This document shows, piece after piece, positions 42,701 through 62,791 of a DNA stretch of 64,000 bases. A model generated the notes under the pieces. The model was not told the DNA's origin. It saw nothing but the letters and a program-made list of their open reading frames with translations, and searched no databases. The number at the start of each line of letters is the position of its first letter. Positions within the stretch are counted from its first letter, which is position 1. Location of the stretch: NCBI GenBank assembly GCA_030425385.1, contig JAUIAH010000028.1, positions 1 to 64,000 of the forward strand, read 5' to 3'. This DNA is from Verrucomicrobiia bacterium (GTDB lineage Bacteria > Verrucomicrobiota > Verrucomicrobiia > Verrucomicrobiales > DEV007). The position numbers and the translations under genes are program-made.

Positions 42701-43577
42701 AACCTTTAACCCACTTTGATCTAACGATCATGGTGGCCTGGCATCACCAGATACCACACCTGTCGCAAGGCAGGGAAAGGAAACAACGTGCTCTGACGTT
42801 GTTCGCCTCTGAAACCTCGTTTCCGGGGACACCCAGGCAAACCCAGTCCTGTAAGCGTCGACGCCCTGTTCGGGATCGGCGCTATGTTGGAAGATGGGAG
42901 ACGCTCCCGCCGCGGATGGCAAATGCTCACGCGGCGGTCGGGGGTAGCACCCTGAAGACTCTCCACGCCAAACATCGACAACCGAGGACCAAGGGCAGTC
43001 ATGCAGTGCGAGGCGTTGCCGCCAAGAGCCGCATGGCAGTTGATCGGTAAGAGCGGAAACGGCTTCCAAGCCATCACGTTTCCGCTCAAGTCGCGTAAAC
43101 CGTTCGAGACCTGCCAGCAACAGGCCGGACAAGAGGCGTGTGGCATTCCGTGATCCAAACGATCATGGACCCACCGGACGTGCACGTCTCTCTCAGAAGC
43201 GCCAACTGCACATTGGTCTAACGCAAAGACGCGTCCACGATCATGACGAGAAATGGCTTAATGCCTGGGCACTCACGGGTGCAATCAGGTGGCAAGGGAG
43301 CCCGCAAAGCTCCTGAGCCTCGACGTCACGCCGCACGGTGGGGTAGCCCCCCTTCATGGCCCGCGAGGGTCGACGGTAGGCCGACCGTTGAGTAGTCATG
43401 ATCGCATGGGAGACTCGCCACTCCCGAAAAACAAAGGCAGTCATGTCGTGAGACGTGGTGTGGGCTCCGGCCCTGCCACGTGGAAGAGTTGGCAACGCGA
43501 GGCCCGCAAGCCTCCGCGGTAATCCAACGCACGTCGCGATCGAAACGGGTGGCCTTCTCAACCCGTTCTAACACAAG
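42701..43577 (+). ncRNA. Structured non-coding interval with recurring words
   Basis: Open frames here conflict and show no domains. Paired elements include GCCTGG (42735) with CCAGGC (42832) enclosing AACAACGT/ACGTTGTT and GGAAAC/GTTTCC, a 10-bp hairpin at 43052-43086, CCGCCGCG/CGCGGCGG near 42910, and ACGTGG/CCACGT near 43456. The word ACGATCATG occurs three times (about 42724, 43159, 43238) and GGCAGTCATG twice (42994 and 43436). I read this as several related structured RNAs, possibly decayed tRNA-like units. Confidence 0.45.
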
Positions 43578-43654
43578 CGTGTCGAGGTCGAAGTAGACGA
43601 GATGCGTGCCTTGGAAGCACGAGAAAGCAGGTGCGAGTCCTGCCGACGCGACCA
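43578..43654 (+). tRNA. tRNA-Pro(TGG), non-canonical
   Basis: Acceptor CGTGTCG/CGACGCG, A73, encoded CCA. Anticodon stem CGTGC/GCACG with loop CTTGGAA. T-loop TGCGAGT (G55). The D-arm is short (GTC/GAC) without GG. Confidence 0.87.
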
Positions 43655-43660
43655 ATTTCC

Positions 43661-43735
43661 TGTGGGATAAGTGTTGGTACTTGTCTCGGTCTCATAAGCC
43701 GAGGTTCGAGGGTTCGATTCCCTCTCCCGCAACCA
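43661..43735 (+). tRNA. tRNA-Met(CAT), canonical elbow
   Basis: Acceptor TGTGGGA/TCCCGCA, A73, CCA encoded. Loop CTCATAA. The D-loop has GG (GTTGGT) and the T-loop is TTCGATT, both canonical, unlike most neighbours. The anticodon stem lacks the three G:C pairs of an initiator. Elongator Met or Ile2 cannot be told apart. Confidence 0.93.
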
Positions 43736-43850
43736 TTACATTGCGCAATTCCAGTTGGCGGAGCGCCCGCAAATCACTCGGCGAATGACGCCCCTAGAGC
43801 AGCACTGCTGCTCAAATCCCAATCATCATTCATCATTCATCAATGCCTAG
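43736..43850 (+). other. Intergenic spacer in the tRNA array
   Basis: Contains a short hairpin (gagcagCACTgctgctc) and a simple repeat of atcattc/catcattcat near 43821-43840. No gene seen. Confidence 0.5.
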
Positions 43851-43925
43851 TCTCCTGTGGTGAAACAGTATCACACGGCCCTGTTAAGGCCTGAGTTCTT
43901 GGTGCGAATCCAAGTGGGAGAGCCA
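43851..43925 (+). tRNA. tRNA-Asn(GTT), non-canonical
   Basis: Acceptor TCTCCTG/TGGGAGA with wobbles, G73, CCA. D-stem GTGA/TCAC with loop AACAGTA (no GG). Anticodon loop CTGTTAA. T-loop TGCGAAT (G55). Confidence 0.9.
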
Positions 43926-43949
43926 TTTCATCGCCACAACGATAGAGCC

Positions 43950-44047
43950 GGGAGGGTAAGCCGAGAATCATAGGTCTATCGGCAACTGTCTTGAAAACAG
44001 TCGGTCCTTCAACGGGTGTGCAGGTTCGAGTCCTGTCCCTCCCGCCA
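43950..44047 (+). tRNA. tRNA-Ser(TGA)
   Basis: Class II. Acceptor GGGAGGG/CCCTCCC, G73, CCA. Anticodon loop CTTGAAA. Long variable region. T-loop TTCGAGT is canonical. The D-arm is unusually long (GCCGA/TCGGC) with a 14-base loop. Confidence 0.92.
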
Positions 44048-44060
44048 ACATCCTTTCCAT

Positions 44061-44134
44061 GGTCGCATAGCTCACGTAGGAGAGCGCTAGCCTGAAGAGC
44101 TTGAGGGCAGGGTGCAACTCCCTAGCGGCCACCA
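44061..44134 (+). tRNA. tRNA-Phe(GAA), non-canonical T-arm
   Basis: D-arm GCTC/GAGC keeps GG (loop ACGTAGGA). Anticodon loop CTGAAGA. The T-stem is only four pairs (AGGG/CCCT) with loop TGCAACT (G55). A73, CCA. The 7:66 position is A:A and the 28:42 position is T:T. Confidence 0.85.
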
Positions 44135-44150
44135 ATCTCCTTTCCTTTCT

Positions 44151-44224
44151 TGCCCTGTAGCTCAAAAGCAGAGCACCCGGCCGATAACCGGAAGACCTCG
44201 GAGCGTTACCGAGCAGGGCGACCA
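44151..44224 (+). tRNA. tRNA-Ile(GAT), non-canonical, C33
   Basis: Acceptor TGCCCTG/CAGGGCG, A73, CCA. D-loop AAAAGCA without GG. T-loop AGCGTTA (no U54, G55, no A58). Anticodon loop CCGATAA has C33 in place of the near-universal U33. Confidence 0.85.
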
Positions 44225-44237
44225 CACTTCTAACAGA

Positions 44238-44311
44238 GGTCCATTGGTGTAATAGCAACATGCCTGTCTGTCGAACAGGAGCCACCGGAGCATAACCGGT
44301 ATGGACCGCCA
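44238..44311 (+). tRNA. tRNA-Asp(GTC), non-canonical
   Basis: Perfect acceptor GGTCCAT/ATGGACC, G73, CCA. D-loop AATAGCA. Anticodon loop CTGTCGA. T-loop AGCATAA. Confidence 0.9.
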
Positions 44312-44324
44312 TCTCATTTCAATT

Positions 44325-44398
44325 GTCCTCGTGGTGTAACAGAAGCATGACTCTGTGCGAAGGAGTCGGATCAGGTGCAAATCCTGGCGAGGATACCA
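44325..44398 (+). tRNA. tRNA-Arg(GCG), non-canonical
   Basis: Acceptor GTCCTCG/CGAGGAT, A73, CCA. D-loop AACAGAA. Anticodon loop GTGCGAA (G32), reading CGC/CGU; bacteria normally use ACG here. T-loop TGCAAAT. Confidence 0.85.
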
Positions 44399-44401
44399 TA
44401 T

Positions 44402-44476
44402 GCTGGCCATGATGTAAGAGTCGCATTACGCCCTGTGAAGGCGTCCGTACGGGTGCAAATCCCGTTGGCCAGCCCA
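44402..44476 (+). tRNA. tRNA-His(GTG), non-canonical elbow with G-1:C73
   Basis: The HisRS identity pair G-1 (44402) and C73 (44473) is encoded. Perfect acceptor CTGGCCA/TGGCCAG, CCA. D-loop AAGAGTC (no GG). Anticodon loop CTGTGAA. T-loop TGCAAAT (G55). Confidence 0.92.
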
Positions 44477-44483
44477 CTTTCAT

Positions 44484-44556
44484 GCCTCTCGACCGAGCAA
44501 GTGAACGGCCTGGATTGCAAATCCATGGTCGGTGGGAGCATTACCCACGAGAGGCT
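44484..44556 (+). tRNA. tRNA-Cys(GCA), non-canonical, U73
   Basis: Perfect acceptor GCCTCTC/GAGAGGC. U73 (CysRS identity base) is followed by CAC, so CCA is not encoded. Anticodon loop TTGCAAA. D-arm CCG/CGG with a 10-base loop. T-loop AGCATTA. Confidence 0.88.
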
Positions 44557-44574
44557 CACTTCTATCTAGCAAAC

Positions 44575-44648
44575 GTACCATTCGTCCAACAGCAAGATGC
44601 CTGGCTTCCACCCAGGAGACGCCGGGGCAGCACCGGCATGGTACACCA
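44575..44648 (+). tRNA. tRNA-Gly(TCC), non-canonical
   Basis: Perfect acceptor GTACCAT/ATGGTAC, A73, CCA. Anticodon arm CCTGG/CCAGG with loop CTTCCAC. T-loop GGCAGCA, the same as in tRNA-Trp. Weak D-stem, no GG. Confidence 0.88.
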
Positions 44649-44659
44649 GTTTCAACCAA

Positions 44660-44763
44660 CAGCCGCCGTCGCAAGGAAGGCAGATGTCTCTGGGAAGGGG
44701 AATCATCACATCTGTCAGCAAATCGTCTTGAGGATGGTCATGGTTCAAAGACGGCGGCGGCTG
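44660..44763 (+). ncRNA. Candidate Y-RNA-like structured RNA inside the array
   Basis: The ends pair over 11 bases (44660-44670 with 44750-44763, one three-base slip). Inside, CAGATGT (44681-44687) pairs with ACATCTG (44708-44714). About 104 nucleotides with end-pairing is the size and shape of Ro-associated Y RNAs, and a Ro60-like gene lies 1.8 kb downstream. The identity is inferred from shape and context only. Confidence 0.5.
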
Positions 44764-44814
44764 ACGGGCCGAGACCGGATTCCCCACAAGCGGAATCCTG
44801 CCAGCATTCAAAAC

Positions 44815-44885
44815 GGGGGATTAGTTCAATAGAAGAACACCTGTCTTACAAACAGGAGGCGGTGGAGCATAACCACCATTCCCTA
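44815..44885 (+). tRNA. tRNA-Val(TAC), non-canonical
   Basis: Acceptor GGGGGAT/ATTCCCT, A73, then CGC so no encoded CCA. D-stem GTTC/GAAC with loop AATAGAA. Anticodon loop CTTACAA. T-loop AGCATAA. Confidence 0.88.
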
Positions 44886-44903
44886 CGCCTTTTCGAGATT
44901 CAC

Positions 44904-44977
44904 GCGGCATTCGTTCAATAGTAGGATACGGGTATGCCAAGCCTGAGACCCCGGAGCGTTACCGGGATGCCGCACCA
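44904..44977 (+). tRNA. tRNA-Gly(GCC), non-canonical
   Basis: Perfect acceptor GCGGCAT/ATGCCGC, A73, CCA. D-loop AATAGTA. Anticodon loop ATGCCAA. T-loop AGCGTTA. Confidence 0.88.
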
Positions 44978-44985
44978 CATTCCAT

Positions 44986-45073
44986 ACGAGGTGCTCCCAC
45001 AGCGGCCTTCTAAGCCGCCGACATCAAACCGTGGGCAGGAAGTCAGGAGGTTCGAGTCCTCCACCTCGTGCCA
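44986..45073 (+). tRNA. tRNA-Arg(TCT)-like, D-arm replaced
   Basis: Perfect acceptor ACGAGGT/ACCTCGT, G73, CCA, canonical T-arm (loop TTCGAGT) and a good anticodon arm GCGGC/GCCGC with loop CTTCTAA. There is no D-arm. Instead CCCAC before and GTGGG after the anticodon arm can pair, enclosing it. 88 bases. Confidence 0.75.
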
Positions 45074-45099
45074 ACGCATCACTTAAATCAAATTTCCAC

Positions 45100-45176
45100 G
45101 CTTCTGTAGCTCAACGGACGAGAGCGTCTGGCTTCGAACCAGAAGGTTGTAGGTTCGAATCCTACCAGAAGTGCCA
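45100..45176 (+). tRNA. tRNA-Arg(TCG), canonical elbow
   Basis: Acceptor GCTTCTG/CAGAAGT, G73, CCA. D-arm GCTC/GAGC with GG. Anticodon loop CTTCGAA. T-loop TTCGAAT. Confidence 0.93.
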
Positions 45177-45201
45177 GTCACCGAAGCATCAACTTTCCAA
45201 T

Positions 45202-45277
45202 TCCTCCGTGGCCGAGAAAGAAAGGCACTCCTCTCGTAAAGGAGCCCATGCCGGTGCAACGCCGGCCGGAGGATCCA
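45202..45277 (+). tRNA. tRNA-Thr(CGT), non-canonical
   Basis: Perfect acceptor TCCTCCG/CGGAGGA, T73, CCA. D-loop AGAAAGAA without GG. Anticodon loop CTCGTAA. T-loop TGCAACG (G55). Confidence 0.88.
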
Positions 45278-45288
45278 CTTTAAACGTC

Positions 45289-45361
45289 GCTCGCGTAGCC
45301 CAATAGCAGAGGCCACCGACTTAAAATCGGTTCAGTGCGGGTGCAACTCCCGCCGCGAGCA
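45289..45361 (+). tRNA. tRNA-Leu(TAA) with short variable loop
   Basis: Perfect acceptor GCTCGCG/CGCGAGC, A73, then GCA (no CCA). Anticodon arm ACCGA/TCGGT with loop CTTAAAA. The variable region is only TCAGT, although bacterial tRNA-Leu is normally class II. T-loop TGCAACT. Confidence 0.87.
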
Positions 45362-45367
45362 GCAAAC

Positions 45368-45444
45368 GGCCATGTAGCCCAACCAGCAGAGGCGCCGGTC
45401 TTAGAAACCGGAGGTTGTGGGTGCAAATCCCACCATGGCTACCA
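45368..45444 (+). tRNA. tRNA-Leu(TAG) with short variable loop
   Basis: Acceptor GGCCATG/CATGGCT, A73, CCA. Anticodon loop CTTAGAA. Variable region AGGTT, class I length. T-loop TGCAAAT. Confidence 0.9.
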
Positions 45445-45455
45445 CTTTCCTTGGA

Positions 45456-45629
45456 TCACGCTTCCAACTCAGCCCCATCAGGGCGATCAGCCATCGACGG
45501 CCGTTTCCCGGCAAGGGAAAGGAGGGTCTGCACGCCAAAGTAAGCTCCAATGAGCATCAAAAGCGGAACAAACACGACACTTAGGAAGACTGTGATATCT
45601 ATGAAAAGCTGTTTAATTTCGGGATGCAT
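45456..45629 (-). CDS. Possible 57-residue single-pass membrane protein
   Basis: An ATG on the minus strand (45629-45627) opens a 57-codon frame with one strong membrane helix (FLSVVFVPLLMLIGAYFGVQTLL, about residues 15-37). A basic then acidic tail follows (GKRPSMADRPDGAELEA). It sits in the largest gap of the array and is opposite in strand to every tRNA. Small one-helix proteins inside accessory islands are often toxins or regulators, but nothing proves that here. No Shine-Dalgarno. Confidence 0.5.
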   Translation of the reverse strand: MHPEIKQLFIDITVFLSVVFVPLLMLIGAYFGVQTLLSLAGKRPSMADRPDGAELEA

Positions 45630-45738
45630 GACTATCGATTGGGAGGATCACTGTCTAAGAGCACGATGATGGCATGAAAGTCACGTACTTTTGTAGTTAT
45701 TCTCATACAAGCTCTCGCGTGTTCCGAAAAGTTTAGAG

Positions 45739-45814
45739 GGGCGCCCATGTTCCAAAGGGGCGATGCTGCCTTGCAAGCAGCGTGTGGCGGGTGCAAGTCC
45801 CGTGGCGTCCACCA
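45739..45814 (+). tRNA. tRNA-Ala(TGC), non-canonical elbow with G3:U70
   Basis: The AlaRS identity pair G3:U70 is present (45741 with 45808). Acceptor GGGCGCC/GGCGTCC, A73, CCA. Anticodon arm GCTGC/GCAGC with loop CTTGCAA. T-loop TGCAAGT. D-arm degenerate. Confidence 0.9.
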
Positions 45815-45835
45815 ATCGCAGACCCGCTCATTTCG

Positions 45836-45928
45836 GGAGTCTTAACCGGGCAAGCGTACCGGCATCGTCTGCTAAGCGAATGGTCCCACCCATCGTGGGA
45901 TGGGGTGCAAGTCCTCAGGACTCCGCCA
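45836..45928 (+). tRNA. tRNA-Ser(GCT), non-canonical
   Basis: Class II with variable arm TCCCAC/GTGGGA. Acceptor GGAGTCT/GGACTCC, G73, CCA. Anticodon loop CTGCTAA. T-loop TGCAAGT. D-stem CCGG/CCGG with loop GCAAGCGTA. Confidence 0.88.
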
Positions 45929-45937
45929 ATTTAACTC

Positions 45938-46013
45938 AGGCTCGTAGCTCAAACAGTGGAGCAGCGGTCTTTTAATCCGCTGGGTGAGAGTGCAAGTCTC
46001 TCCGAGCCTACCA
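45938..46013 (+). tRNA. tRNA-Lys(TTT), non-canonical
   Basis: Perfect acceptor AGGCTCG/CGAGCCT, A73, CCA. D-stem GCTC/GAGC with loop AAACAGTG. Anticodon loop CTTTTAA. T-loop TGCAAGT. Confidence 0.9.
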
Positions 46014-46041
46014 CTTTCCGCAATTGCTTGGAAGCTTGGAG

Positions 46042-46117
46042 TCCCCTGTGGCAGAAATAGTAATGCGCCGGCCTTTGAAGCCGGAGTGTGTGGGTGCAAG
46101 TCCCTCCGGGGGTGCCA
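46042..46117 (+). tRNA. tRNA-Gln(TTG), non-canonical
   Basis: Acceptor TCCCCTG/CGGGGGT with an open 1:72 (T:T), G73, CCA. A weak first pair is typical of tRNA-Gln. D-loop AAATAGTA. Anticodon loop CTTTGAA. T-loop TGCAAGT. Confidence 0.88.
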
Positions 46118-46125
46118 CTTTGTCA

Positions 46126-46200
46126 GTCCCTGTAGTGTAGTGGCCAGCACGACAGACTTTCGATCTGTAGTCGCGGGTTCGATTCCCGCCAGGGATGCCA
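46126..46200 (+). tRNA. tRNA-Glu(TTC), canonical elbow
   Basis: Acceptor GTCCCTG/CAGGGAT, G73, CCA. D-arm GTGT/GCAC with loop AGTGGCCA. Anticodon loop CTTTCGA. T-loop TTCGATT. Confidence 0.94.
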
Positions 46201-46261
46201 CATTTCCAATGAGTCAATGGATGATCGATGATGCCCTCTTCGATCATGTGATCTCGCATTG

Positions 46262-46336
46262 GTCCGGGTCGTTCAATAGTGAGGACGTCGGTCTCTGAAA
46301 CCGAAGATGATGGTGCAACTCCATCCCCGGATGCCA
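46262..46336 (+). tRNA. tRNA-Gln(CTG), non-canonical
   Basis: Acceptor GTCCGGG/CCCGGAT, G73, CCA. D-loop AATAGTGA. Anticodon arm TCGGT/ACCGA with loop CTCTGAA. T-loop TGCAACT. Confidence 0.9.
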
Positions 46337-46347
46337 CTCAAGAACAA

Positions 46348-46423
46348 AGGTCCGTAGCTCAACAGTGAGAGCAACCGCCTCTTAAGCGGAAGGTTGCGGG
46401 TGCGAATCCCGCCGGGCCCACCA
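46348..46423 (+). tRNA. tRNA-Lys(CTT), non-canonical
   Basis: Acceptor AGGTCCG/CGGGCCC with 1:72 A:C, A73, CCA. D-loop AACAGTGA. Anticodon loop CTCTTAA. T-loop TGCGAAT (G55). Last tRNA of the array, 146 bases before the Ro-like gene. Confidence 0.89.
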
Positions 46424-46569: not shown

Positions 46570-48351
46570 ATGCACCCTAACAACACACTCTCTCCCGAAT
46601 CTCTTGGTCCAGCCGAGAAACTCCTGGATTTGATCATCAACTTTCCTGATCACCTCTGGCACCACCGCCCCGGCGTGATCGTTGAGGGCAAATGGCGCGC
46701 GGCTCGCCCAGAAGAGATTCGCACGTTTCGAACGCAGGGACGTCTCCGCGCGGGAACGTTTCGGCCGCCTGGCCCTAACACCGAAGCCATCGAGCAGGTA
46801 TACGCGACGCTTGGCGACATCTGGCAAACGAACAACGATCTGGCAGCCCGCTTAGCTTCCTATGTGATGCATCACACGGATTGGCGCGACATGAAAGTCG
46901 TTTGCGCAGCCTTCATGCTCGTGCAATCACGCTGTGGCCAACCCGTGACCGAGGACCTTCATGGCGAACGCCATGTTCTCTTCCACGATGACGATTTCCG
47001 AGAAATCGGTGAAGCCATGGTCAAGGCCTACGAGCGTGGTTCTGCGAAGATGCTGAACCCGAAACTGATCCGGCGAATCGGTGATGTGTTAGCGCTTCCT
47101 GGCGTCGTAGAAATCAATCGTCTGTTAGGCTTCGGCCACGCGCAGAAGCGCAAGCCCTTCACTGGCCGCTATGACAAAGCGGTCCGCGACTGGCTGGCCT
47201 TTCGCGAGGCGAACCCTTCGCTTCTCGAGGGACTCCGCAAAGGCGGCTATGCGTCTACGGTGCGCGTTCTCGCCCGAAGAGTGGGTTACAAGCCCAAGTC
47301 ACAAGCCTTCTTTGAAGCGCTGGCCTGGCCTCAGAAGCAACACGCGAACGGTCACCGAACAATTGGCCTTGAAGGCTTACAGATCCACAAGATCTCGTTT
47401 GAGGGACTCACCGAAACGCAGATCTGTGAGATCATCGATCGTGAGACGCTGGGGTGGAAACAGGTCATGGGGCTTTTGCCCAAAGACATCGGTCTGACGC
47501 CGGCGATCTTTGTCGCGCTGATTGATAGGATGTCTGACAAAGACCTCGTGATTCTCACCCCAACCCTTGACGAGTTCCAACTGCTCAAGCATGCTCCCAT
47601 CCGGGAGCGTTGGGAAGCCGCCCTACGCGGACAAGAGGATCAACGCGCACGCAACGTGGCGAAGAACCTGAAAGATCGCGAAACGGCATTAGCGCTAGAG
47701 AATGCGGCCGATGGAGTTGTCACCAAGGCCGTGCAAGAAGCCACGAAAGATCGTGATGTTCACGTCATGTTCCTCATCGACGTCAGCGCCTCTATGGAAG
47801 GCGCCATCGCGCTTTCTCGTGAAGCGCTCTCGATGATGGTGCAAGGGTTTCCGCAAGAGAAGCTCTACATCTCGTGCTTCAACACGGTGGGCAACTGGCT
47901 CAAACCACGCCACTACTCAGCAGCGGGCATCGCACACATGCTAGGGCACGTGCGCGCCGCAGGCGGGACCAACCACAGTGTGGGTGTGCAAGTGTTCCAG
48001 ATGAATCGTGTTCGGATTCCCCAAGACGCGGAGTTGATCCTCTTCGTCGTCGGTGATGAAGCAGGCGAATCGGGACGTCAGTTCGCCCGGGCCATACGGG
48101 ATTCCGGCTACCATCCGACCGCCTTCGCCCACATGGTAAACGTGGCGCCCGGTTGGGCCCGTGGATCCACCGTGCGAGATGCGGCTTCCGAACTCGGCTT
48201 GCCTTACACCGAAGTCGTCGTGGACCAGTTCTGCGATGTCTATCAAGTGCAACGCACGCTTAAAGCAGTGCTCGAAGCCACGCCTCATCGGACGGGAATC
48301 TCGCTCGTAGAGAAGATCCTCCAGACCGAGTTGCTCGTGAAACCTTACTAA
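46570..48351 (+). CDS. Ro60/TROVE-like RNA-binding protein with von Willebrand A domain
   Basis: 593 residues. The N-terminal about 390 residues are all-helical, as in the HEAT-like ring of Ro60 proteins (segments around LAARLASYVMHHTDWRD and LGWKQVMGLLPKDIGLTPA). The C-terminal vWA domain (about 400-590) has the metal site DVSASM, a later GGTNHS and VVGDEAGE. Ro proteins bind misfolded RNAs and Y RNAs and feed RNA decay or repair. The array ends 146 bases upstream on the same strand. The overall order matches Ro family proteins, but sequence similarity in the ring is weak, so the family is inferred. Confidence 0.68.
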   Translation: MHPNNTLSPESLGPAEKLLDLIINFPDHLWHHRPGVIVEGKWRAARPEEIRTFRTQGRLRAGTFRPPGPNTEAIEQVYATLGDIWQTNNDLAARLASYVMHHTDWRDMKVVCAAFMLVQSRCGQPVTEDLHGERHVLFHDDDFREIGEAMVKAYERGSAKMLNPKLIRRIGDVLALPGVVEINRLLGFGHAQKRKPFTGRYDKAVRDWLAFREANPSLLEGLRKGGYASTVRVLARRVGYKPKSQAFFEALAWPQKQHANGHRTIGLEGLQIHKISFEGLTETQICEIIDRETLGWKQVMGLLPKDIGLTPAIFVALIDRMSDKDLVILTPTLDEFQLLKHAPIRERWEAALRGQEDQRARNVAKNLKDRETALALENAADGVVTKAVQEATKDRDVHVMFLIDVSASMEGAIALSREALSMMVQGFPQEKLYISCFNTVGNWLKPRHYSAAGIAHMLGHVRAAGGTNHSVGVQVFQMNRVRIPQDAELILFVVGDEAGESGRQFARAIRDSGYHPTAFAHMVNVAPGWARGSTVRDAASELGLPYTEVVVDQFCDVYQVQRTLKAVLEATPHRTGISLVEKILQTELLVKPY

Positions 48352-48449
48352 CAATCCTTCAATCTTACCTTAGGCACATGCCGGGGCGGAGAATCGGCTC
48401 CGTCCCGGCGAACACGACTCTTTCCTGCGGGATGCAATCGGCCGGAAGT

Positions 48450-48525
48450 TACAAGCTAGCTCATTCGGTAGAGCATCTGATCAGAACTCAGAATGTGGTT
48501 GGTTCGAATCCAACGCTGATACAAA
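48450..48525 (+). ncRNA. tRNA-like element with defective acceptor stem
   Basis: D-arm GCTC/GAGC with canonical GG and T-arm GTTGG/CCAAC with canonical TTCGAAT. The anticodon stem TCTGA/TCAGA has loop TCAGAAC (C33). The acceptor TACAAGC/GCTGATA has two internal mismatches and there is no CCA. It lies between the Ro-like gene and the next gene and reads as a tRNA mimic rather than a working tRNA. Confidence 0.55.
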
Positions 48526-48588
48526 CACTTCTCTCCACTCGCATCCCGCAGACTCTTTCCTCAGAACGCTAACGAAAACCACGACACC

Positions 48589-49413
48589 ATGAACTACACC
48601 GCCTTTCTCCAAACAGGGATCCAGGAACAAATCCTCCCCTACTTCGAAGGGAAGACAGTGTGTGACCGCGAGCGCACCTATCGCTTGCGTCAACGCCTTG
48701 CTCCCGGCTGGTATCGCTTTCACATCTCGGGACGTTACGCAGACGCTCTCAGCCCTGCCGATTCCGATGCGGAGACCTGGAGTCTGCGCACGACGCAAGG
48801 CTACATGGTCCAGGATCGACTGATCACACAGACGCAGTCCGAGAAGCTTCACGGGATTCCCGTAGACGAGCATCTGCCTCGATTCGCGCCCGTCGTAGCG
48901 TGGCGCTGGTTTGATGGCCACCTGTTCTTCGCCCATCAAGCCTTTGAAACGGAAGTCGACCTCGCCGTCCGCATCGCCTACGAAGATGAACTAGCCATCA
49001 CCGCGATCAAAGGTGTGACGCCAGCACTGGCTCAGGCGTTTGTGTTAGAAACCGCGCGACGCACCTTGCAACGAGAACTCGCCGCACGCCAGCGTCAGGA
49101 AAGCATTCTCCGCGATCAACGGAAGGCCATACGGCGTGCTCACACCACGCTGCAGGATCGCCTCACTCTGGCACTCGCACATTCGGGAGCCCAGCTCATG
49201 GATTTCCGATCCGCACAGGGCACAGAAGTGGTGGTTCGCTACCGGCTAGACCGCCAGCGCTACGAATGCGTCGTCGACACCGAGTCCCTTCAGATCCTCG
49301 ATGCTGGCATCTGCCTGGAAGGCGCGGACCGGGAGCTCAGCCTCTCGAGCCTCCCCTCTGCCGTCCGTGAAGCCTCACAAAGCGGCGAACTCCATGTCTT
49401 TCGGCATGGCTAA
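48589..49413 (+). CDS. Unknown protein of the Ro/E1-like operon
   Basis: 274 residues. The N-terminal half is beta-rich with aromatic residues (APGWYRFHISGRY, APVVAWRWFDGHLFF). A strongly charged helical or coiled-coil segment covers about 155-195 (ARRTLQRELAARQRQESILRDQRKAIRRAH). The C-terminal part is beta-rich with RYRLDRQRYECVVDTESLQILDAGICL. No signal peptide, so likely cytoplasmic. I recognise no family. Its position between the Ro-like gene and the small Gly-ending/E1-like pair suggests a role as an E2-like or adaptor partner, but no catalytic Cys motif is visible. Confidence 0.75.
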   Translation: MNYTAFLQTGIQEQILPYFEGKTVCDRERTYRLRQRLAPGWYRFHISGRYADALSPADSDAETWSLRTTQGYMVQDRLITQTQSEKLHGIPVDEHLPRFAPVVAWRWFDGHLFFAHQAFETEVDLAVRIAYEDELAITAIKGVTPALAQAFVLETARRTLQRELAARQRQESILRDQRKAIRRAHTTLQDRLTLALAHSGAQLMDFRSAQGTEVVVRYRLDRQRYECVVDTESLQILDAGICLEGADRELSLSSLPSAVREASQSGELHVFRHG

Positions 49414-49439: not shown

Positions 49440-49679
49440 ATGAAATCAGCAACGATCAACATCACCTATCAAGGCCTCAGCGCCAACTACCTCACCCCAC
49501 TTCCCAAGAACGCGAGCGATGCCATGATTCGACGTGTCTGTGAGGAAGCGATCCGCGGCGGCGAGGTACCAGAGCTTCCTCGCGCCATTCCCGCCAACGC
49601 CTTCGCCGCTCACGTGGTGGACCGCTTCCAGGGCGCCAAGAACCAGTTCATCGTGCGCCCGCAAGTGCCGTTCGGCTAA
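49440..49679 (+). CDS. Small protein ending in Gly, possible ubiquitin-like modifier
   Basis: 79 residues. An N-terminal strand (SATINITYQG) leads to a helix (DAMIRRVCEEAI) and a final strand ending NQFIVRPQVPFG. Small beta-grasp proteins ending in Gly next to ThiF/E1 proteins are the usual layout of prokaryotic ubiquitin-like or sulfur-carrier systems. Here the terminal residue is a single Gly rather than Gly-Gly, so the assignment is tentative. The E1-like gene begins 22 bases downstream. Confidence 0.65.
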   Translation: MKSATINITYQGLSANYLTPLPKNASDAMIRRVCEEAIRGGEVPELPRAIPANAFAAHVVDRFQGAKNQFIVRPQVPFG

Positions 49680-49701
49680 CATTGAACCACTAACCACCCG
49701 C

Positions 49702-50283
49702 ATGAAGATCACCATCTGCGGCGGGGGAGCCCTCGGCTCTCACGTCCTCTACCTGTCCCGCAGCCTCTCCAATGCTCGCTTTGGAGTCATCGATAACGAC
49801 CGCGTGGAGACGAAGAATTTGGCAGCTCAATGGTTTGTGAAACCGATGCTCGGCAAGAACAAGGCCACCGCCCTGAAGTTGCAGATGGCCAACTTCTTCG
49901 GCTGCGCGATCGATGCCTCCCCTGTCCGACTCAGCAAAGTGAACATGCAGGAATTGTTAGGGTCCACCGATCTCGTCGTTGATTGTTTCGACAACGGCGC
50001 TAGCCGCCAGTTAATTCAGGACTTTGTCAGAGAAACGTCCACACCCTGTGTCCACGCGGGGCTGGCAGCGGATGGGACCTTCGGAGCCGTCCGCTGGGAC
50101 CGCGACTTCGTCATCGATCACGAACCGGTGGAAGGACAGGCCACCTGCGAAGGAGGCGCGTTTCTGCCTCTTATCGTGCAGGCGTCAGTGTCTTTAGTCG
50201 AAGCGATTCGCACGTTTCAAACGGAGCGTTCCGAAACCAACTGGAACATCCGACCAGGGAGAACGGAGAAGCTCGAAACGTGA
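49702..50283 (+). CDS. ThiF/E1-like adenylyl-transferase
   Basis: 193 residues from ATG 49702; the longer open frame from 49534 overlaps the small gene and is not needed. The Rossmann ATP site is GGGALGSH (residues 6-13). E1-type residues follow: IDNDRVETKNLAAQWF, the Lys in LGKNKA, and the acidic VDCFDNGASR. It would adenylate the C-terminus of a small modifier. It lacks the zinc CxxC pairs of ThiF/MoeB, and the catalytic Cys is uncertain (CVHAG or ATCEGG). It resembles the compact E1-like proteins of plasmid PRTRC-type clusters. Confidence 0.83.
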   Translation: MKITICGGGALGSHVLYLSRSLSNARFGVIDNDRVETKNLAAQWFVKPMLGKNKATALKLQMANFFGCAIDASPVRLSKVNMQELLGSTDLVVDCFDNGASRQLIQDFVRETSTPCVHAGLAADGTFGAVRWDRDFVIDHEPVEGQATCEGGAFLPLIVQASVSLVEAIRTFQTERSETNWNIRPGRTEKLET

Positions 50284-50739: not shown

Positions 50740-50813
50740 CCTCCAGTAGCTCATTGGTAGAGCATCTGACTCATCATCAGAAGGTAGCTGGTTCGAATCC
50801 AGCCGTACATCCA
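50740..50813 (+). ncRNA. tRNA-Met(CAT)-like element without acceptor pairing
   Basis: Canonical D-arm (GCTC/GAGC, loop ATTGGTA), anticodon arm TCTGA/TCAGA with loop CTCATCA, and T-arm GCTGG/CCAGC with TTCGAAT. The seven bases before T8 (CCTCCAG) do not pair with CGTACAT on the 3' side. CCA follows. It shares the D-arm and anticodon stem with the element at 48450. A tRNA mimic or relic; a working tRNA is unlikely. Confidence 0.55.
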
Positions 50814-52820: not shown

Positions 52821-53023
52821 AGGACGCAAATCCCTTTCCACGGATTTGCGGCTAGAATACGCAGCGATGTAGGCAGCGGATTCCAACCGCCGTCCCAACT
52901 TTCGAAACAGGCTCTCACCTGTGATTGGCAGCCCTTGAAGAACGAACACCAACCCGCGAAGAAGCGCCGAGGCGATGCATTCATTCTTCTAACATCACCA
53001 TTACCTTCAACTACCATCATCAC

Positions 53024-53608
53024 ATGAGCTGCCTGCACAAGCATATCGTCCTCGTTCTCAACCGGAACTGGCAAGCCATCAACACGACCAGCCCAGCCAT
53101 GGCGTTCGCCCAGATGGCGACGGATGTGGCCACCGCCTTGGACATCCAGGGCACGGACTCGATGGTTCCCACTCCGTGGGAGGACTGGCAGGACTTGCCC
53201 GTGCGCAACACGGATGCCTTCATTGGAACGGTGCATGGCAGCGTGCGCGTGCCCACGGTGATCGTGCTGGCCAACTTCAACCGGGTGCCGCTCAAACGTC
53301 CCAAGTTCAGTGCTCGCGCCATCCGCGAACGCGATGGTGGTCGCTGCCAATACACGGGACGACCGTTGGCTCCCGAAGAGGGGAACATCGACCACGTCGT
53401 CCCGCGCTCGCGCGGTGGTGCCACCTCCTGGGACAACTGCGTGCTCGCCGCCAAGGACGTGAATTCGCGAAAAGCAGATCGCCTTCCCAAGGAAGCGGGC
53501 CTGCGGCTCCTCGCCGAACCTCGCGCCCCTCGGGAAGTGCCCATGACCTTTCTGCTCCGCAATTTCCACGGCATCTCCGACTGGGACCCCTTCCTGGTCA
53601 GGCGTTGA
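53024..53608 (+). CDS. HNH-family nuclease
   Basis: 194 residues from ATG 53024. The C-terminal part has the HNH fold: ERDGGRCQYTG (first zinc half-knuckle), NIDHVVPRSRGGATSWDNCV (catalytic His) and the conserved VNSRKADRLPKEAGL. The N-terminal third (LNRNWQAINTTSPAMAFAQM) is typical of a widespread bacterial HNH subgroup. It could be a housekeeping or defence nuclease. It closes the accessory region on the same strand. Confidence 0.88.
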   Translation: MSCLHKHIVLVLNRNWQAINTTSPAMAFAQMATDVATALDIQGTDSMVPTPWEDWQDLPVRNTDAFIGTVHGSVRVPTVIVLANFNRVPLKRPKFSARAIRERDGGRCQYTGRPLAPEEGNIDHVVPRSRGGATSWDNCVLAAKDVNSRKADRLPKEAGLRLLAEPRAPREVPMTFLLRNFHGISDWDPFLVRR

Positions 53609-53758: not shown

Positions 53759-56700
53759 ATGAGAGATCCCAAGACAACCATCGGACTAAATCAGGGCTAC
53801 ACCCCAGAAGGCAAGGACACCCAAACGATCAAAGAATACGTCAATTTGAAGCTGGCCGCCCGCGGCTTCAGCATCGTTGGCGACGAAGCGGACTTTCCCT
53901 TCCTTGAGATGGGACGTTCGCTTCTGGCAAATTTCCAGGAGCGGATGCGTCTGTTGTCCGATCGTCTGGCGCCCGTGGATCAGCGGATCGATCAATTCCT
54001 CCGCGACTACCTGACAGGCATCCCGGACGACATCTTTGACAAGGACACGCCGCGAATTCCTAACAATGCTCTTATCCTAGAGAAGCACGGCATTGCGCGG
54101 ATGCTCAGTTTGCCTGCCAATGAGGATCGCTTCACGTCTGACATTGTCTCCTCTTTCCGCGTGGACCAGGGAGTCATTCACAATCCGGCAAAGGATCGAC
54201 GTACGACCAAAGGCGTCTTCCATGTGACGGAAGGTGGGTTGCCCATTCCAGCTGACAAGAAGGCCATTCCCAAAGTGACCTTTGCCCACCTGCTTAAAGC
54301 CGCTCTGAATCCGCCAGAATCGCTGCTCACCGTACCCTATACGGTCAATCAGGAAAAGCCTGCCCACGCGTTTCTAGGCCTCCTCCTCCGCCCTATCGTC
54401 ACTCCCGAGGTCCCTGGCATTCATCCACAACGCAGCATGGAAATGCGTTTCTTTGCCCCAGGCAACCTCGTCAGCAATCTCGACTTTGTGGAATCGATCT
54501 TTGGCAATGCAGGCGATCCCTTTCTTCCGGAGAATAATGCCGCCCTGGATTCGGAACAGTGGACCGGGCACACGGGGTGCGCCATCCTCGCGCCCCATCT
54601 CATCTATTTGCGCAAGAAAGATGTGGGCCTACCCCACATCAACGACGCCACGGATCGCCAGAAACGCGACGGCATGTGCTGGGAGAATGAGGACGAACTC
54701 TACAATGATGGCGGCGCTTTCAAGATCACCTGCCGCGACAAGACCGGCGTGATGGTGACCATCATTGCCGATAACTACTTTGGCTACTGCAAGAAGGAGG
54801 TGAAGACCCAGATCAGCTACGCCGCCAATTTGTTAGGCAACGCCGAAGAGGAACATGCGGGGGGCGCCATTGCGTTTCCTTGCTTTGATCATGGCGAATA
54901 CTTTGCCCTCAATCGTCGCGACTCCGCGCTCGACCATTCTTATGAAGATGCTCTTAGCATTCTCGGCGATTCGGCCGATGTGCGCCCCGAGGGATACGCC
55001 ATCGACAAGCGATTTCCCGAGATCTTCTATGTGAGTGAGAACACCGAGATCGATCTCCATCAGCAACGGGTCACGTGGACAGACAGCCAGGGCATTGAGC
55101 ATGAAATGCGCCTCCGCCCCAATGGGCACTATGTGTATCCGTCAGGTTACAAAGTCTCCATGAGGCAGCCCATGGAGGGAGCGCGTTGGCGCTTGGTGGG
55201 CACGCAGGCAGAAGGCACCTTCTGTCATAAGCCCTGCACGGTATCCGGTGGAGGGAAATCAGAGATCTCCAAATCGCTCGCCGATGCGATGAATTCCGGT
55301 CCTGTCATCATCCCTAATTTCCACTCGGTGATGGAGAAAGTGAAAGAGGTCTTGGAACGCAATTACTGGGATCGTTATCCCAATCCGCGCAAGAATGCCG
55401 AGGAGAGCCGCTCCATTCTCGATACCAAACGCTCTCTTGGCTCCGTGCTACGCCTTCTGACGCCGCACGAAGAGTGCACGGATGAGCACAATCAATACAT
55501 CAGATCGTTGCCAAAGGAGGTCATTGAAATGGCGCTGATCATCAAGCGTTTCTACAAAGACGACTGGGGTGATTGGGATCAATGGCATCACCGCTTCAGC
55601 GTTGATGTCATTGATGGTTCACCGGGTTATGAACTCAAGTATCAGAATCAACTCCTGCTGAATCGTTATCTCCGCGTGGGTTATGATCCTCAAGGCGGTG
55701 CCTGGCGCACCTTTCGTCTGCGCAAAGACTTTCTCCCTGCGCAAAAGCTGCAACGAGAAGATGATATTTCGGCGAGCATGGTGCTTCCCGTCAGCGGTGA
55801 TGATGGGCTCCACCCCGAGCTGCCGGCGGGCACTTACAAATTCATCGCCAACTGCGAATGCCGTTTCTTCCAGCGTCCCGACGACGCCATCCATCGCGGC
55901 TATGATAAAGTGACCGAACAAGACTTTTCCAAGCCAGGAAATTTCTTCTCCAACTACGAACCCATCACTCGGGAGCAGGCCCGCAAGATGGTGGCGGATA
56001 CCATCCGCTTTGGACATTTCACCAAGCCAGTCAAACGACGTATTCGCGCCTTTGTGAAAGCGGATTCGCCCGAGTATGTGGCCTCGCCAGACCAGCCGCG
56101 TTTGGTCGAAGGCAAGCCGTCCAAGAACCCACGCTATTTGCAAGACCGCCTCGATCTTCACGATGAGGAGGGCGAATACTTGGCAGATGTCGGCATGCGC
56201 CTTTATCGACGCTTGCCCGCGGGCAAGCCAGCACTCACGCCCGTGAATGCGGTCCTCCCCGGCAGACGCAACAATCCCCCCAATGTCGACCAGGGCATCC
56301 GCGCGCTCGCCGTCTTTAATCCTATCCATTACCAAGAGCTGCCTGAGCTCTTTATGGACTTCATTGCCAGCCTGACCGGCAAGTCGCCCTCGACGACCGG
56401 AGCGGGATCAGAGGGCGCCCTCACTAAAGGCCCCTTCAATGCGCTCTTGCCCATTGTGGACCTGAATAACGCCCTCTTGGCTTTCATTCTCACCAAACAA
56501 GCTTGTTATGTCAGCGCCGCTGCCTATATCGGCCCCAAATACCGGGTGGACCATGATATCAGCCTCCTGGTGCCAGAAGTATGGTCGCGTATGCACATCC
56601 GCGAACGCGATCCGCAGCATTTGATCGAGCACGGCATGCTCGAACTCTGTGAGGACTTCGAGCATCAAGGCAAGACCGTGCTTGCGAGCCGCTTGGGCTA

Positions 56701-57241
56701 CCGCATCACGGAGAAATTTGTCGATCGTTTCTTCGGACGTCTCTTTAGCGATCCTTTATCAGTCTTTCCTGAAGAAATGCTCCGGCCCGAGAAGCAAGAT
56801 GCAGACGCTTTCGCTGATGGCGTGGCCAATATCGTTGAAGCGCAACAGCGGGTGGCCAAGCTCTATTTCGATGACCAAGCCGTCCGCGATGCCTGCCCGC
56901 CTCTCAAAGCCCTGCTCACTATCATGGCCCATGGCGATTGCGATGGCATGACGGCGACTAGTCCTGAATTGCGTGCGCTCTTTGACTATGACGCCGTCAT
57001 TGAGAGTGATTGGTATCGCCACCGTCTCGCCGCCAAAGTACAAGTCGACGCTCAACTCTGGCGACGCCATATCGAGAACTTGCAGAATTTCTCACGACAA
57101 GGCGTCTACCAGAAAGAGATCGAACGCCTCGGCATTCAATCCCGATTGGAAAGCGCTCGGCTTCACCTAGCAAAGGTTGAAAGCACTGAGTATCTCGAAT
57201 CGCTGCGAGGAACGATTGGAGCCGACCCGTCCGTTGTATAA
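53759..57241 (+). CDS. Giant cytoplasmic enzyme, possibly PPi-type PEP carboxykinase
   Basis: 1160 residues with no signal or membrane segment. Stretches such as ITCRDKTGVMVTIIADNYFGYCKKEVKTQ, EEEHAGGAIAFPCFDHGEYF, HKPCTVSGGGKSEISKSL and SGYKVSMRQPMEGARWRLVGT look like a well-conserved enzyme. The length and glycine/serine-rich phosphate-loop-like GGGKSE fit the roughly 1100-residue PPi-dependent phosphoenolpyruvate carboxykinases known from Propionibacterium and Entamoeba. I am recalling that family rather than comparing sequences, so treat it as a lead. Confidence 0.8.
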   Translation: MRDPKTTIGLNQGYTPEGKDTQTIKEYVNLKLAARGFSIVGDEADFPFLEMGRSLLANFQERMRLLSDRLAPVDQRIDQFLRDYLTGIPDDIFDKDTPRIPNNALILEKHGIARMLSLPANEDRFTSDIVSSFRVDQGVIHNPAKDRRTTKGVFHVTEGGLPIPADKKAIPKVTFAHLLKAALNPPESLLTVPYTVNQEKPAHAFLGLLLRPIVTPEVPGIHPQRSMEMRFFAPGNLVSNLDFVESIFGNAGDPFLPENNAALDSEQWTGHTGCAILAPHLIYLRKKDVGLPHINDATDRQKRDGMCWENEDELYNDGGAFKITCRDKTGVMVTIIADNYFGYCKKEVKTQISYAANLLGNAEEEHAGGAIAFPCFDHGEYFALNRRDSALDHSYEDALSILGDSADVRPEGYAIDKRFPEIFYVSENTEIDLHQQRVTWTDSQGIEHEMRLRPNGHYVYPSGYKVSMRQPMEGARWRLVGTQAEGTFCHKPCTVSGGGKSEISKSLADAMNSGPVIIPNFHSVMEKVKEVLERNYWDRYPNPRKNAEESRSILDTKRSLGSVLRLLTPHEECTDEHNQYIRSLPKEVIEMALIIKRFYKDDWGDWDQWHHRFSVDVIDGSPGYELKYQNQLLLNRYLRVGYDPQGGAWRTFRLRKDFLPAQKLQREDDISASMVLPVSGDDGLHPELPAGTYKFIANCECRFFQRPDDAIHRGYDKVTEQDFSKPGNFFSNYEPITREQARKMVADTIRFGHFTKPVKRRIRAFVKADSPEYVASPDQPRLVEGKPSKNPRYLQDRLDLHDEEGEYLADVGMRLYRRLPAGKPALTPVNAVLPGRRNNPPNVDQGIRALAVFNPIHYQELPELFMDFIASLTGKSPSTTGAGSEGALTKGPFNALLPIVDLNNALLAFILTKQACYVSAAAYIGPKYRVDHDISLLVPEVWSRMHIRERDPQHLIEHGMLELCEDFEHQGKTVLASRLGYRITEKFVDRFFGRLFSDPLSVFPEEMLRPEKQDADAFADGVANIVEAQQRVAKLYFDDQAVRDACPPLKALLTIMAHGDCDGMTATSPELRALFDYDAVIESDWYRHRLAAKVQVDAQLWRRHIENLQNFSRQGVYQKEIERLGIQSRLESARLHLAKVESTEYLESLRGTIGADPSVV

Positions 57242-62032: not shown

Positions 62033-62791
62033 TCAGATCTGCAGAAGGGCTTCGATGACGACGGCAGCGGCGGTGAAGCCGAGGGTGCCGGTGACGGCGG
62101 CGGCGGTGCCGAAACCACTGGCGCAGTCGAGTTGGAGACTGGATCCGGGCTCTGGTCGGTCGCAGATGCGACCGTCGCTCCAGGGGAAGACGGGGTTCTC
62201 CGTCGTGAAGACCGCCGGAACGCCGAAGGGTTCACGGAGATCTCGGGAAAAGCCGTGCTCTTGGCGGAGCTTCTTGCGAAGACGCTTGAGCAAGGGGTCG
62301 TTGGTGGCTTTGCCGAGATCAGCAGTCGCCACTTTGCTAGGATCACGTTTCCCGCCGCCGCCTCCCGAGACCACAAGAGGGATGCCTTGCTGGCGGCAGG
62401 CGCACACGAGCTGACATTTGTCCCGAATGCTGTCGATGGCGTCAACGCAATGATCGATGCCTGGCTCTAACAATGCGGTGGCGTTGGCGGCGGTAAGATA
62501 GGTTTTGTGAACATGGATGGTGGCTTCTGGGTGGATGAGAGCGGTGCGATCGGCGAGGGCTTGGGCTTTCGATTGGCCGATGGTCCCGTCATGCGCATGA
62601 ATTTGCCTGTTGACGTTGGTGACGCAGATGTCATCGAGATCGATAAGCGTTAGGGTGCCAACACCCGATCGCGCGAGGGCTTCCACGGCCCAGGACCCGA
62701 CGCCGCCCAGACCGATGACGGCCACGTGTGCCGACTGGAGGCGTTCGAGAGCGCCTTTCCCGTAGAGACGTTCAATGCCCCCAAAGCGCAT
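62033..62791 (-). CDS. tcdA: tRNA threonylcarbamoyladenosine dehydratase
   Basis: 252 residues. An E1-like ATPase that cyclises t6A at tRNA position 37 to ct6A. Motifs are GLGGVGSWAVEALARSGVG, IDLDDICVTNVNRQI, CVDAIDSIRDKCQLV and the C-terminal CASGFGTAAAVTG. It is distinct from the E1-like gene at 49.7 kb, being longer and with the TcdA C-terminus. It is 8 bases from the next gene on the same strand. Confidence 0.94.
   Translation of the reverse strand: MRFGGIERLYGKGALERLQSAHVAVIGLGGVGSWAVEALARSGVGTLTLIDLDDICVTNVNRQIHAHDGTIGQSKAQALADRTALIHPEATIHVHKTYLTAANATALLEPGIDHCVDAIDSIRDKCQLVCACRQQGIPLVVSGGGGGKRDPSKVATADLGKATNDPLLKRLRKKLRQEHGFSRDLREPFGVPAVFTTENPVFPWSDGRICDRPEPGSSLQLDCASGFGTAAAVTGTLGFTAAAVVIEALLQI

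Follow-up and report, generated by a model that had tools for sequence, protein, structure and literature searches.

Within the 64,000-nucleotide stretch of DNA analysed here (the window), we found, in this order, a tRNA array, a Ro-like gene, a tRNA-like RNA, the genes for a 274-aa and a 79-aa protein, an E1-like gene and an SPFH gene (Table 1). MetK, SAH hydrolase and FeoB are encoded among the neighbours, indicating a chromosomal setting for this cassette. The open reading frame of the 274-aa protein was confirmed, as were the two that underlie the observation, made in an earlier note on this DNA, of a 79-residue protein ending in Gly (…VRPQVPFG, then the stop) just before an E1-like gene. 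For the latter, the list of open reading frames gives a GTG start at 49534 that overlaps the 79-aa gene out of frame; starting from the ATG at 49702 yields the conserved protein of 193 aa.

Table 1. Features of the locus; positions are those of the window unless a related locus (L number) is named
Feature	Position	Strand	Evidence
Ro/TROVE-like protein, 593 aa: helical N-terminal region and C-terminal VWA	46570..48351	+	hhalign, VWA matches, MIDAS
Candidate Y-RNA-like RNA	48428..48548	+	ARAGORN/Rfam tRNA match 48450-48522; L055 counterpart; phage covariation
274-aa putative transfer (E2-like) protein	48589..49413	+	Invariant G240/C242/D247; AF2
Ubiquitin-like modifier (predicted), 79 aa, mature C-terminus …RPQVPFG	49440..49679	+	AF2; R73, P74, G79 invariant
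Compact E1/ThiF-like adenylating enzyme (predicted), 193 aa	49702..50283	+	PF00899; invariant residues
Array of tRNA genes (associated cargo), upstream of the cassette	43578..46423	+	ARAGORN and Rfam
GOLLD-like large RNA, head of the tRNA array, associated	43131..43564	+	RF02032
HNH nuclease, associated, recurs in tRNA-array loci	53018..53608	+	PF13395
Insert-bearing tRNA genes	L013:10682-10821, L013:11094-11233, L013:11508-11646, L021:10649-10775, L033:10899-11029 and 23 others		

The SPFH gene encodes a slipin, a genuine PF01145 match that the earlier note had named as a possible target of conjugation. It lies outside the conserved set, being kept at 0/35 phage and 1/59 cellular loci, and slipin conjugates are therefore a lower-priority target. 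The window also encodes a second, ordinary ThiF-family protein outside the cassette (62036-62791, minus strand; E = 9.9e-34) and a 1160-aa protein (53759-57241) with no Pfam or NCBIfam match and no homologue in any related locus.

Distribution and gene order of the cassette

The first relatives found were Virus Rctr197k (KX853510) and a 595-kb phage (LR756511), both carrying homologues of the E1, the Ro-like protein and the 274-aa protein, together with a JAMM-motif protein and a ubiquitin-like protein (Ubl) that has …RPxxxFG at its end or within it. Searching with the E1 profile recovered further relatives in IMG/VR (37 strong loci, many on contigs of 70-620 kb) and in bacterial genomes (80 loci, Myxococcota predominating), and all loci were then scanned with iterated profiles for each family. 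IMG/VR scans with the 274-aa protein or with the Ro profile gave no matches, because short degenerate patterns miss divergent proteins.

The genes for Ro, the 274-aa protein, Ubl and E1 occur together in 70 loci, on jumbo-phage contigs and in Myxococcota, Verrucomicrobiales and others. They lie on one strand in 70/70 of these full loci, and the order Ro-274-JAB-Ubl-E1 is found in 61, the JAB/JAMM gene, usually present in the relatives, completing the set. The gap between the Ubl and E1 genes has a median of 61 nt (n = 99 loci). The co-occurrence of the four genes is far beyond chance. The closest cassette relative of the window is that of a Verrucomicrobiales MAG (L055), whose E1 is 58% identical.

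Two variants of this organization were observed. Several myxobacteria (L059:3638-9643, L063 and L061) have the Ro-274-JAB and Ubl-E1 halves ~6 kb apart, with apparently unrelated genes between them, e.g. a glycosidase-like gene. A divergent branch (L047-L054 and L007), comprising phage contigs and the cyanobacterial plasmid pAfl69, has homologues of Ro, the 274-aa protein and E1 in several loci; the Ubl profile finds no Ubl in this branch, where a diverged one may be hidden.

Predicted folds and invariant residues

The Ubl family has no match in Pfam, PHROGs, PADLOC or NCBIfam. The AlphaFold2 model of the 79-aa protein, obtained with 85 relatives in the alignment, has the topology strand-strand-helix-strand-strand (pLDDT 93.1), and a ubiquitin-like β-grasp fold is thus predicted with high confidence. 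The folds matching the model are ubiquitin-like, with Z up to 6.7 (the PI3K adaptor-binding domain and ubiquitin, the latter at 6.1-6.4 with Gly79 at ubiquitin's C-terminus), values that are all below 8 and would be weak alone, but with which topology, size and C-terminus concur. The Foldseek list includes SAMP1, UFM1 and MOCS2A. The family ends in RPxxx(F/Y)G, with R73, P74 and G79 invariant in 101/101 relatives and the last two residues FG in 99 and YG in 2. A β-grasp fold and a conserved C-terminal Gly had been set beforehand as the two tests of the modifier proposal, and both came out in its favour. After the Gly, most Ubl genes encode 1-3 extra residues and some up to 61; ubiquitin precursors likewise carry a tail beyond their final Gly. 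In Atg8/UFM1-type Ubls the mature end is FG or VG, exposed once a very short tail has been removed. With these the resemblance is one of analogy only, there being no detectable sequence relation.

In the JAB family, HxHP and SxxD are present in 69/69 members and the Glu in 68/69, giving the E…HxHP…SxxD signature of JAMM proteases, and 45/46 match PF14464 (Prok-JAB). The gene is absent from the window, and no member of the family was detected in the window genome (8.0 Mb, 95.5% complete), where reversal of tagging may consequently be unavailable. Five other full loci lack it as well (L008, L080, L098, L115 and L117). The Ubl is Gly-terminated in 6/6 full loci without JAB versus 16/64 with it (Fisher p = 5.7e-4, uncorrected for shared ancestry, the loci not being fully independent), as expected if JAB matures the Ubl.

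The E1-like protein falls in the ThiF/E1 superfamily, matching PF00899 with E = 3.1e-20 (72.8 bits; cut-off 28.1). Residues G7, G9, G12, D31, D33, N39, Q43, K54, D94, D97, R102, H118, W132 and C149 are invariant (116/116), a set that includes the nucleotide-binding and adenylation residues. The catalytic-type Cys149 lies within TCEGGAFLP, at a position that we take to correspond to the TCxxaGVxGP-type site of ThiF, and is a candidate catalytic cysteine for thioester formation. CxxC occurs in 0/116 relatives, so the lack of zinc ligands already pointed out for the window protein holds family-wide.

The 274-residue protein had been described as unassigned, and it stays so: its family has no match in Pfam, NCBIfam, PHROGs or PADLOC. 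The only invariant residues are G240, C242 and D247 (G-x-C-x4-D, 81/81). The AF2 model (pLDDT 93.2) consists of an OB-like N half, a long coiled helix and a C-terminal domain in which a helix, four strands, Cys242 and a helix follow one another in the order of the elements of an E2. E2 homology gave no signal by PDB profile search or by hhalign against human E2s, Prok-E2_B and Prok-E2_D; the hhalign tests are low-powered, a human E2 reaching only E = 0.004 against Prok-E2_B itself, with the human E2 queries approximate. The full-length fold search with the model listed no E2, the N half dominating the matches, which are to OB folds of the IF1/S17/Mpa type (Z ≤ 5.7); Foldseek gave weak matches to dsRNA-binding domains (E = 0.13). 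Since E2 homology was not established, we keep "E2-like" as a functional hypothesis. The proposal that this protein is the transfer partner is made more likely by the invariant Cys, the E2-like order of elements and the constant synteny, and it finds no backing in E2 homology.

The Ro-like protein and its candidate RNA partners

Taken alone, the window Ro-like sequence matches VWA only, and PF05731 gives no match. Comparing the Ro family with TROVE by hhalign gives a probability of 97.5 (E = 6.8e-12, 498 columns), and the MIDAS residues D-S-S-T-D are intact in 68/68 members. On this profile-profile comparison, the family is a divergent TROVE/VWA homologue, in keeping with the Ro-like label given to the window protein earlier, and thus a bacterial counterpart of Ro60, an RNA-binding protein of humans.

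ARAGORN detects 14 tRNAs in the array (43661-46423), and Rfam tRNA matches add more. The tRNA density per 20 kb is 13.9 at phage loci and 4.8 at cellular loci, against 0.10 at control loci, i.e. generic ThiF gene loci from the same scan. HNH homologues are present at 8/35 phage, 14/59 cellular and 0/13 control loci. The GOLLD match, which here lies on a bacterial chromosome, is full-length (RF02032, E = 3.8e-23, 91 bits, below the gathering score of 150); GOLLD was not found in L002, L003, L055, L064, L075 and L105, and is therefore not a constant part. The HNH nuclease of the window is close to the HNH domains of Cas9d/IscB. On jumbo-phage contigs, bacterial class A RNase P RNA and tmRNA were seen near the cassette (L021:14197-14561; L010:18737-19089).

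The candidate RNA next to the Ro-like gene is a tRNA-like module that lacks an acceptor stem; UUACAAGC precedes it, and GGAAGU/ACUUC and CGGGAUGC/GCAUCCCG helices enclose it. In both the window and L055, the Ro-adjacent tRNA-like RNA has no normal acceptor stem and is framed by GAAGUUACAAGC and CACUUC, and RNAs of the same type are found in phages. Bacterial Y RNAs have a tRNA-like domain (PMC7790460), which makes these RNAs good candidates for the Ro-bound RNA. Downstream of the E1-like gene, at 50746-50804, lies a second sequence of tRNA-like type; it has the D, anticodon and T arms and no clear acceptor stem.

A related element of ~50-65 nt is found in jumbo-phage tRNA genes, in the variable region between the anticodon arm and the T arm, with the pattern CCAG…CCUCG-hairpin-…CUUACAAGC. 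In 28/50 cases the insert is bridged by a perfect acceptor stem of 7 bp, versus 1.4% with shuffled partners. Excising the insert and rerunning ARAGORN on the interrupted tRNAs discriminated weakly (34/50 versus 14-22/50 shuffled), and the acceptor-stem test was used instead. The first (basal) helix of the insert covaries strongly (score 0.655 versus 0.225 shuffled, 0/500; slid versions ≤0.19). The insert may be spliced out, bind Ro or form a giant variable arm.

Proposed mechanism, alternatives and known systems

The gene set, its synteny, the predicted folds, the active-type residues, the TROVE homology and the RNA association were computed, and from them we infer the chemical steps, the target and the purpose. 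On balance, the cassette is probably a Ubl protein-conjugation system that specifically serves a TROVE/Ro ribonucleoprotein. Where the Ubl precursor has a tail, the JAB metalloprotease would trim it and expose …FG; the window Ubl gene already stops at the Gly, making JAB unnecessary for maturation there. The compact E1 would use ATP to adenylate the C-terminal Gly79 of the Ubl, hold it as a Cys149 thioester, and hand it to Cys242 in the E2-like C-terminal domain of the 274-aa protein. The OB-like N half of that protein, with the coiled segment, may position it at the Ro particle or at the RNA of the particle. Conjugation of the Ubl would follow, to a target that Ro and the Y-RNA-like/tRNA-like RNA hold; the likeliest targets are Ro itself or one of its partners, e.g. 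a nuclease or a translation component that has been damaged. JAB, where encoded, would undo the conjugation. The purpose may be tRNA/RNA quality control in conflicts, e.g. with host nucleases cutting tRNAs; such cleavage would account for the cassette travelling with tRNA arrays in giant phages. We offer only tentatively, as the less likely case, a more specific version: a phage/host Ubl pathway with a TROVE/Y-RNA-like particle as client, in which Ro would bind the insert-bearing tRNAs of jumbo phages directly and tagging would gate their storage, repair or destruction when the host attacks tRNAs. Counting against conjugation are the single-Gly FG end of the Ubl in place of GG, the absence of the Arg that E1 enzymes usually carry in the motif NLxRQ, and the gene set itself, in which no E3-like gene was recognised.

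It is conceivable, if rather unlikely, that Ubl, E1 and JAB conjugate with the E1 transferring directly, the 274-aa protein serving the Ro particle as an RNA-binding or scaffold subunit. Its OB-like N half, the weak dsRNA-binding-domain matches, the place of its gene after Ro and the missing sequence-level E2 homology all suit such a role, but it would leave aside that G-x-C-x4-D holds the sole invariants of the family, that the C-terminal domain has the element order of an E2, and that the gene is kept in every full locus (by definition of the set) and in most partial ones. A sulfur relay, with the Ubl as a carrier of ThiS/Urm1/TtuB type and the E1 and its Cys149 making a thiocarboxylate that thiolates the tRNAs of the array, seems to us improbable. 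The best matches of the E1 are indeed the ThiF/MoeB families, the tRNA linkage is constant, and Urm1 serves sulfur transfer and conjugation alike (PMC5349211). The constant five-gene set, however, includes no rhodanese, thiouridylase, ThiG or MoaE-like gene, the Ubl C-terminus is FG, not GG, and a JAB and a Cys-bearing 274-aa protein are better suited to conjugation. Finally, Ro, tRNAs and Ubl genes could be independent cargo, passively hitchhiking at a mobile tRNA-array hotspot. Such arrays gather mobile genes such as HNH and GOLLD, and the split halves of some myxobacteria, with unrelated genes between, would fit; yet this reading is very unlikely, because gene order is fixed in most full loci, across phage contigs and bacteria of several groups, and the strand is always shared, while the slipin gene, the gene for the 1160-aa protein and others located there lack conservation.

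Read as a conjugation system, the cassette resembles several known ones. Ubl conjugation in bacteria has already been described for the Bil operon, in which BilD is a large, pseudodimeric E1 and BilB an E2 with a CEHH motif (PMC11354881). Bil (BilA-D: Ubl, E2, JAB and E1) assembles in one operon the roles predicted for the cassette, namely a JAB-processed Ubl, an E1 thioester and a Cys-bearing transfer protein. The cassette differs in its E1 of 193 aa, in a putative E2 that carries G-x-C-x4-D and whose N half is OB-like, and in its TROVE/tRNA linkage; membership in Bil was rejected on the size of the E1 and on the 274-aa invariants, which are G-C-D with no conserved E/H/H. CBASS Cap2/3 and Bub also represent bacterial Ubl conjugation. 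With CBASS Cap2/Cap3 and other E1-E2 fusion systems the cassette has a ThiF-fold E1 and a JAB in common, and PADLOC E1-E2 models match its E1 at E = 1e-10, whereas the cassette E1 is separate, small and unfused, with a dedicated Ubl and no CD-NTase. Type II CBASS was excluded, as no CD-NTase with an E1-E2 fusion was present among the scanned neighbouring proteins. The cassette JAB profile matches BubCD of Citrobacter weakly (E = 0.022); the Bub gene set differs, and the TROVE companion also sets the cassette apart. PRTRC, made up of the Ubl PRTRC-C, the E2-like PRTRC-B/Prok-E2_D and a ThiF, likewise places a small Ubl-like protein beside ThiF. PRTRC membership was rejected, TIGR03736 scoring 40.9 bits against the E1, far under its cut-off of 144.75, and profile comparison did not link the 274-aa protein to Prok-E2_D. 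On the RNA side, the rsr-yrlBA-rtcBA RNA repair operon (Ro60/Rsr, Y RNAs, RtcBA) has, as here, a Ro protein with an adjacent tRNA-like Y-type RNA (PMC7790460). The partners in the cassette are Ubl, E1, JAB and the 274-aa protein instead of RtcBA.

The expectation that such conjugation would be new in bacteria must therefore be narrowed: Ubl conjugation itself is known from Bil, CBASS Cap2/3 and Bub, and the part that seems new is the constant link to TROVE/Ro and tRNA arrays, with Ubl and transfer-protein families of its own. A survey of jumbo phages mentions TROVE, with no Ubl, ThiF or JAB partner (PMC7824862), and earlier notice elsewhere is possible. Bacterial Ubl conjugation has so far been linked chiefly to anti-phage defence; here, many giant phages carry a complete-looking set, as do myxobacteria, with Archangium, Corallococcus and Myxococcus as cultured carriers. 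Overall, the cassette suggests that bacteria and viruses couple protein tagging to RNA surveillance. If this is true, giant phages would own a ubiquitin-like system, and partners would be at hand for the bacterial Ro proteins, homologues of Ro60 whose regulation is poorly understood.
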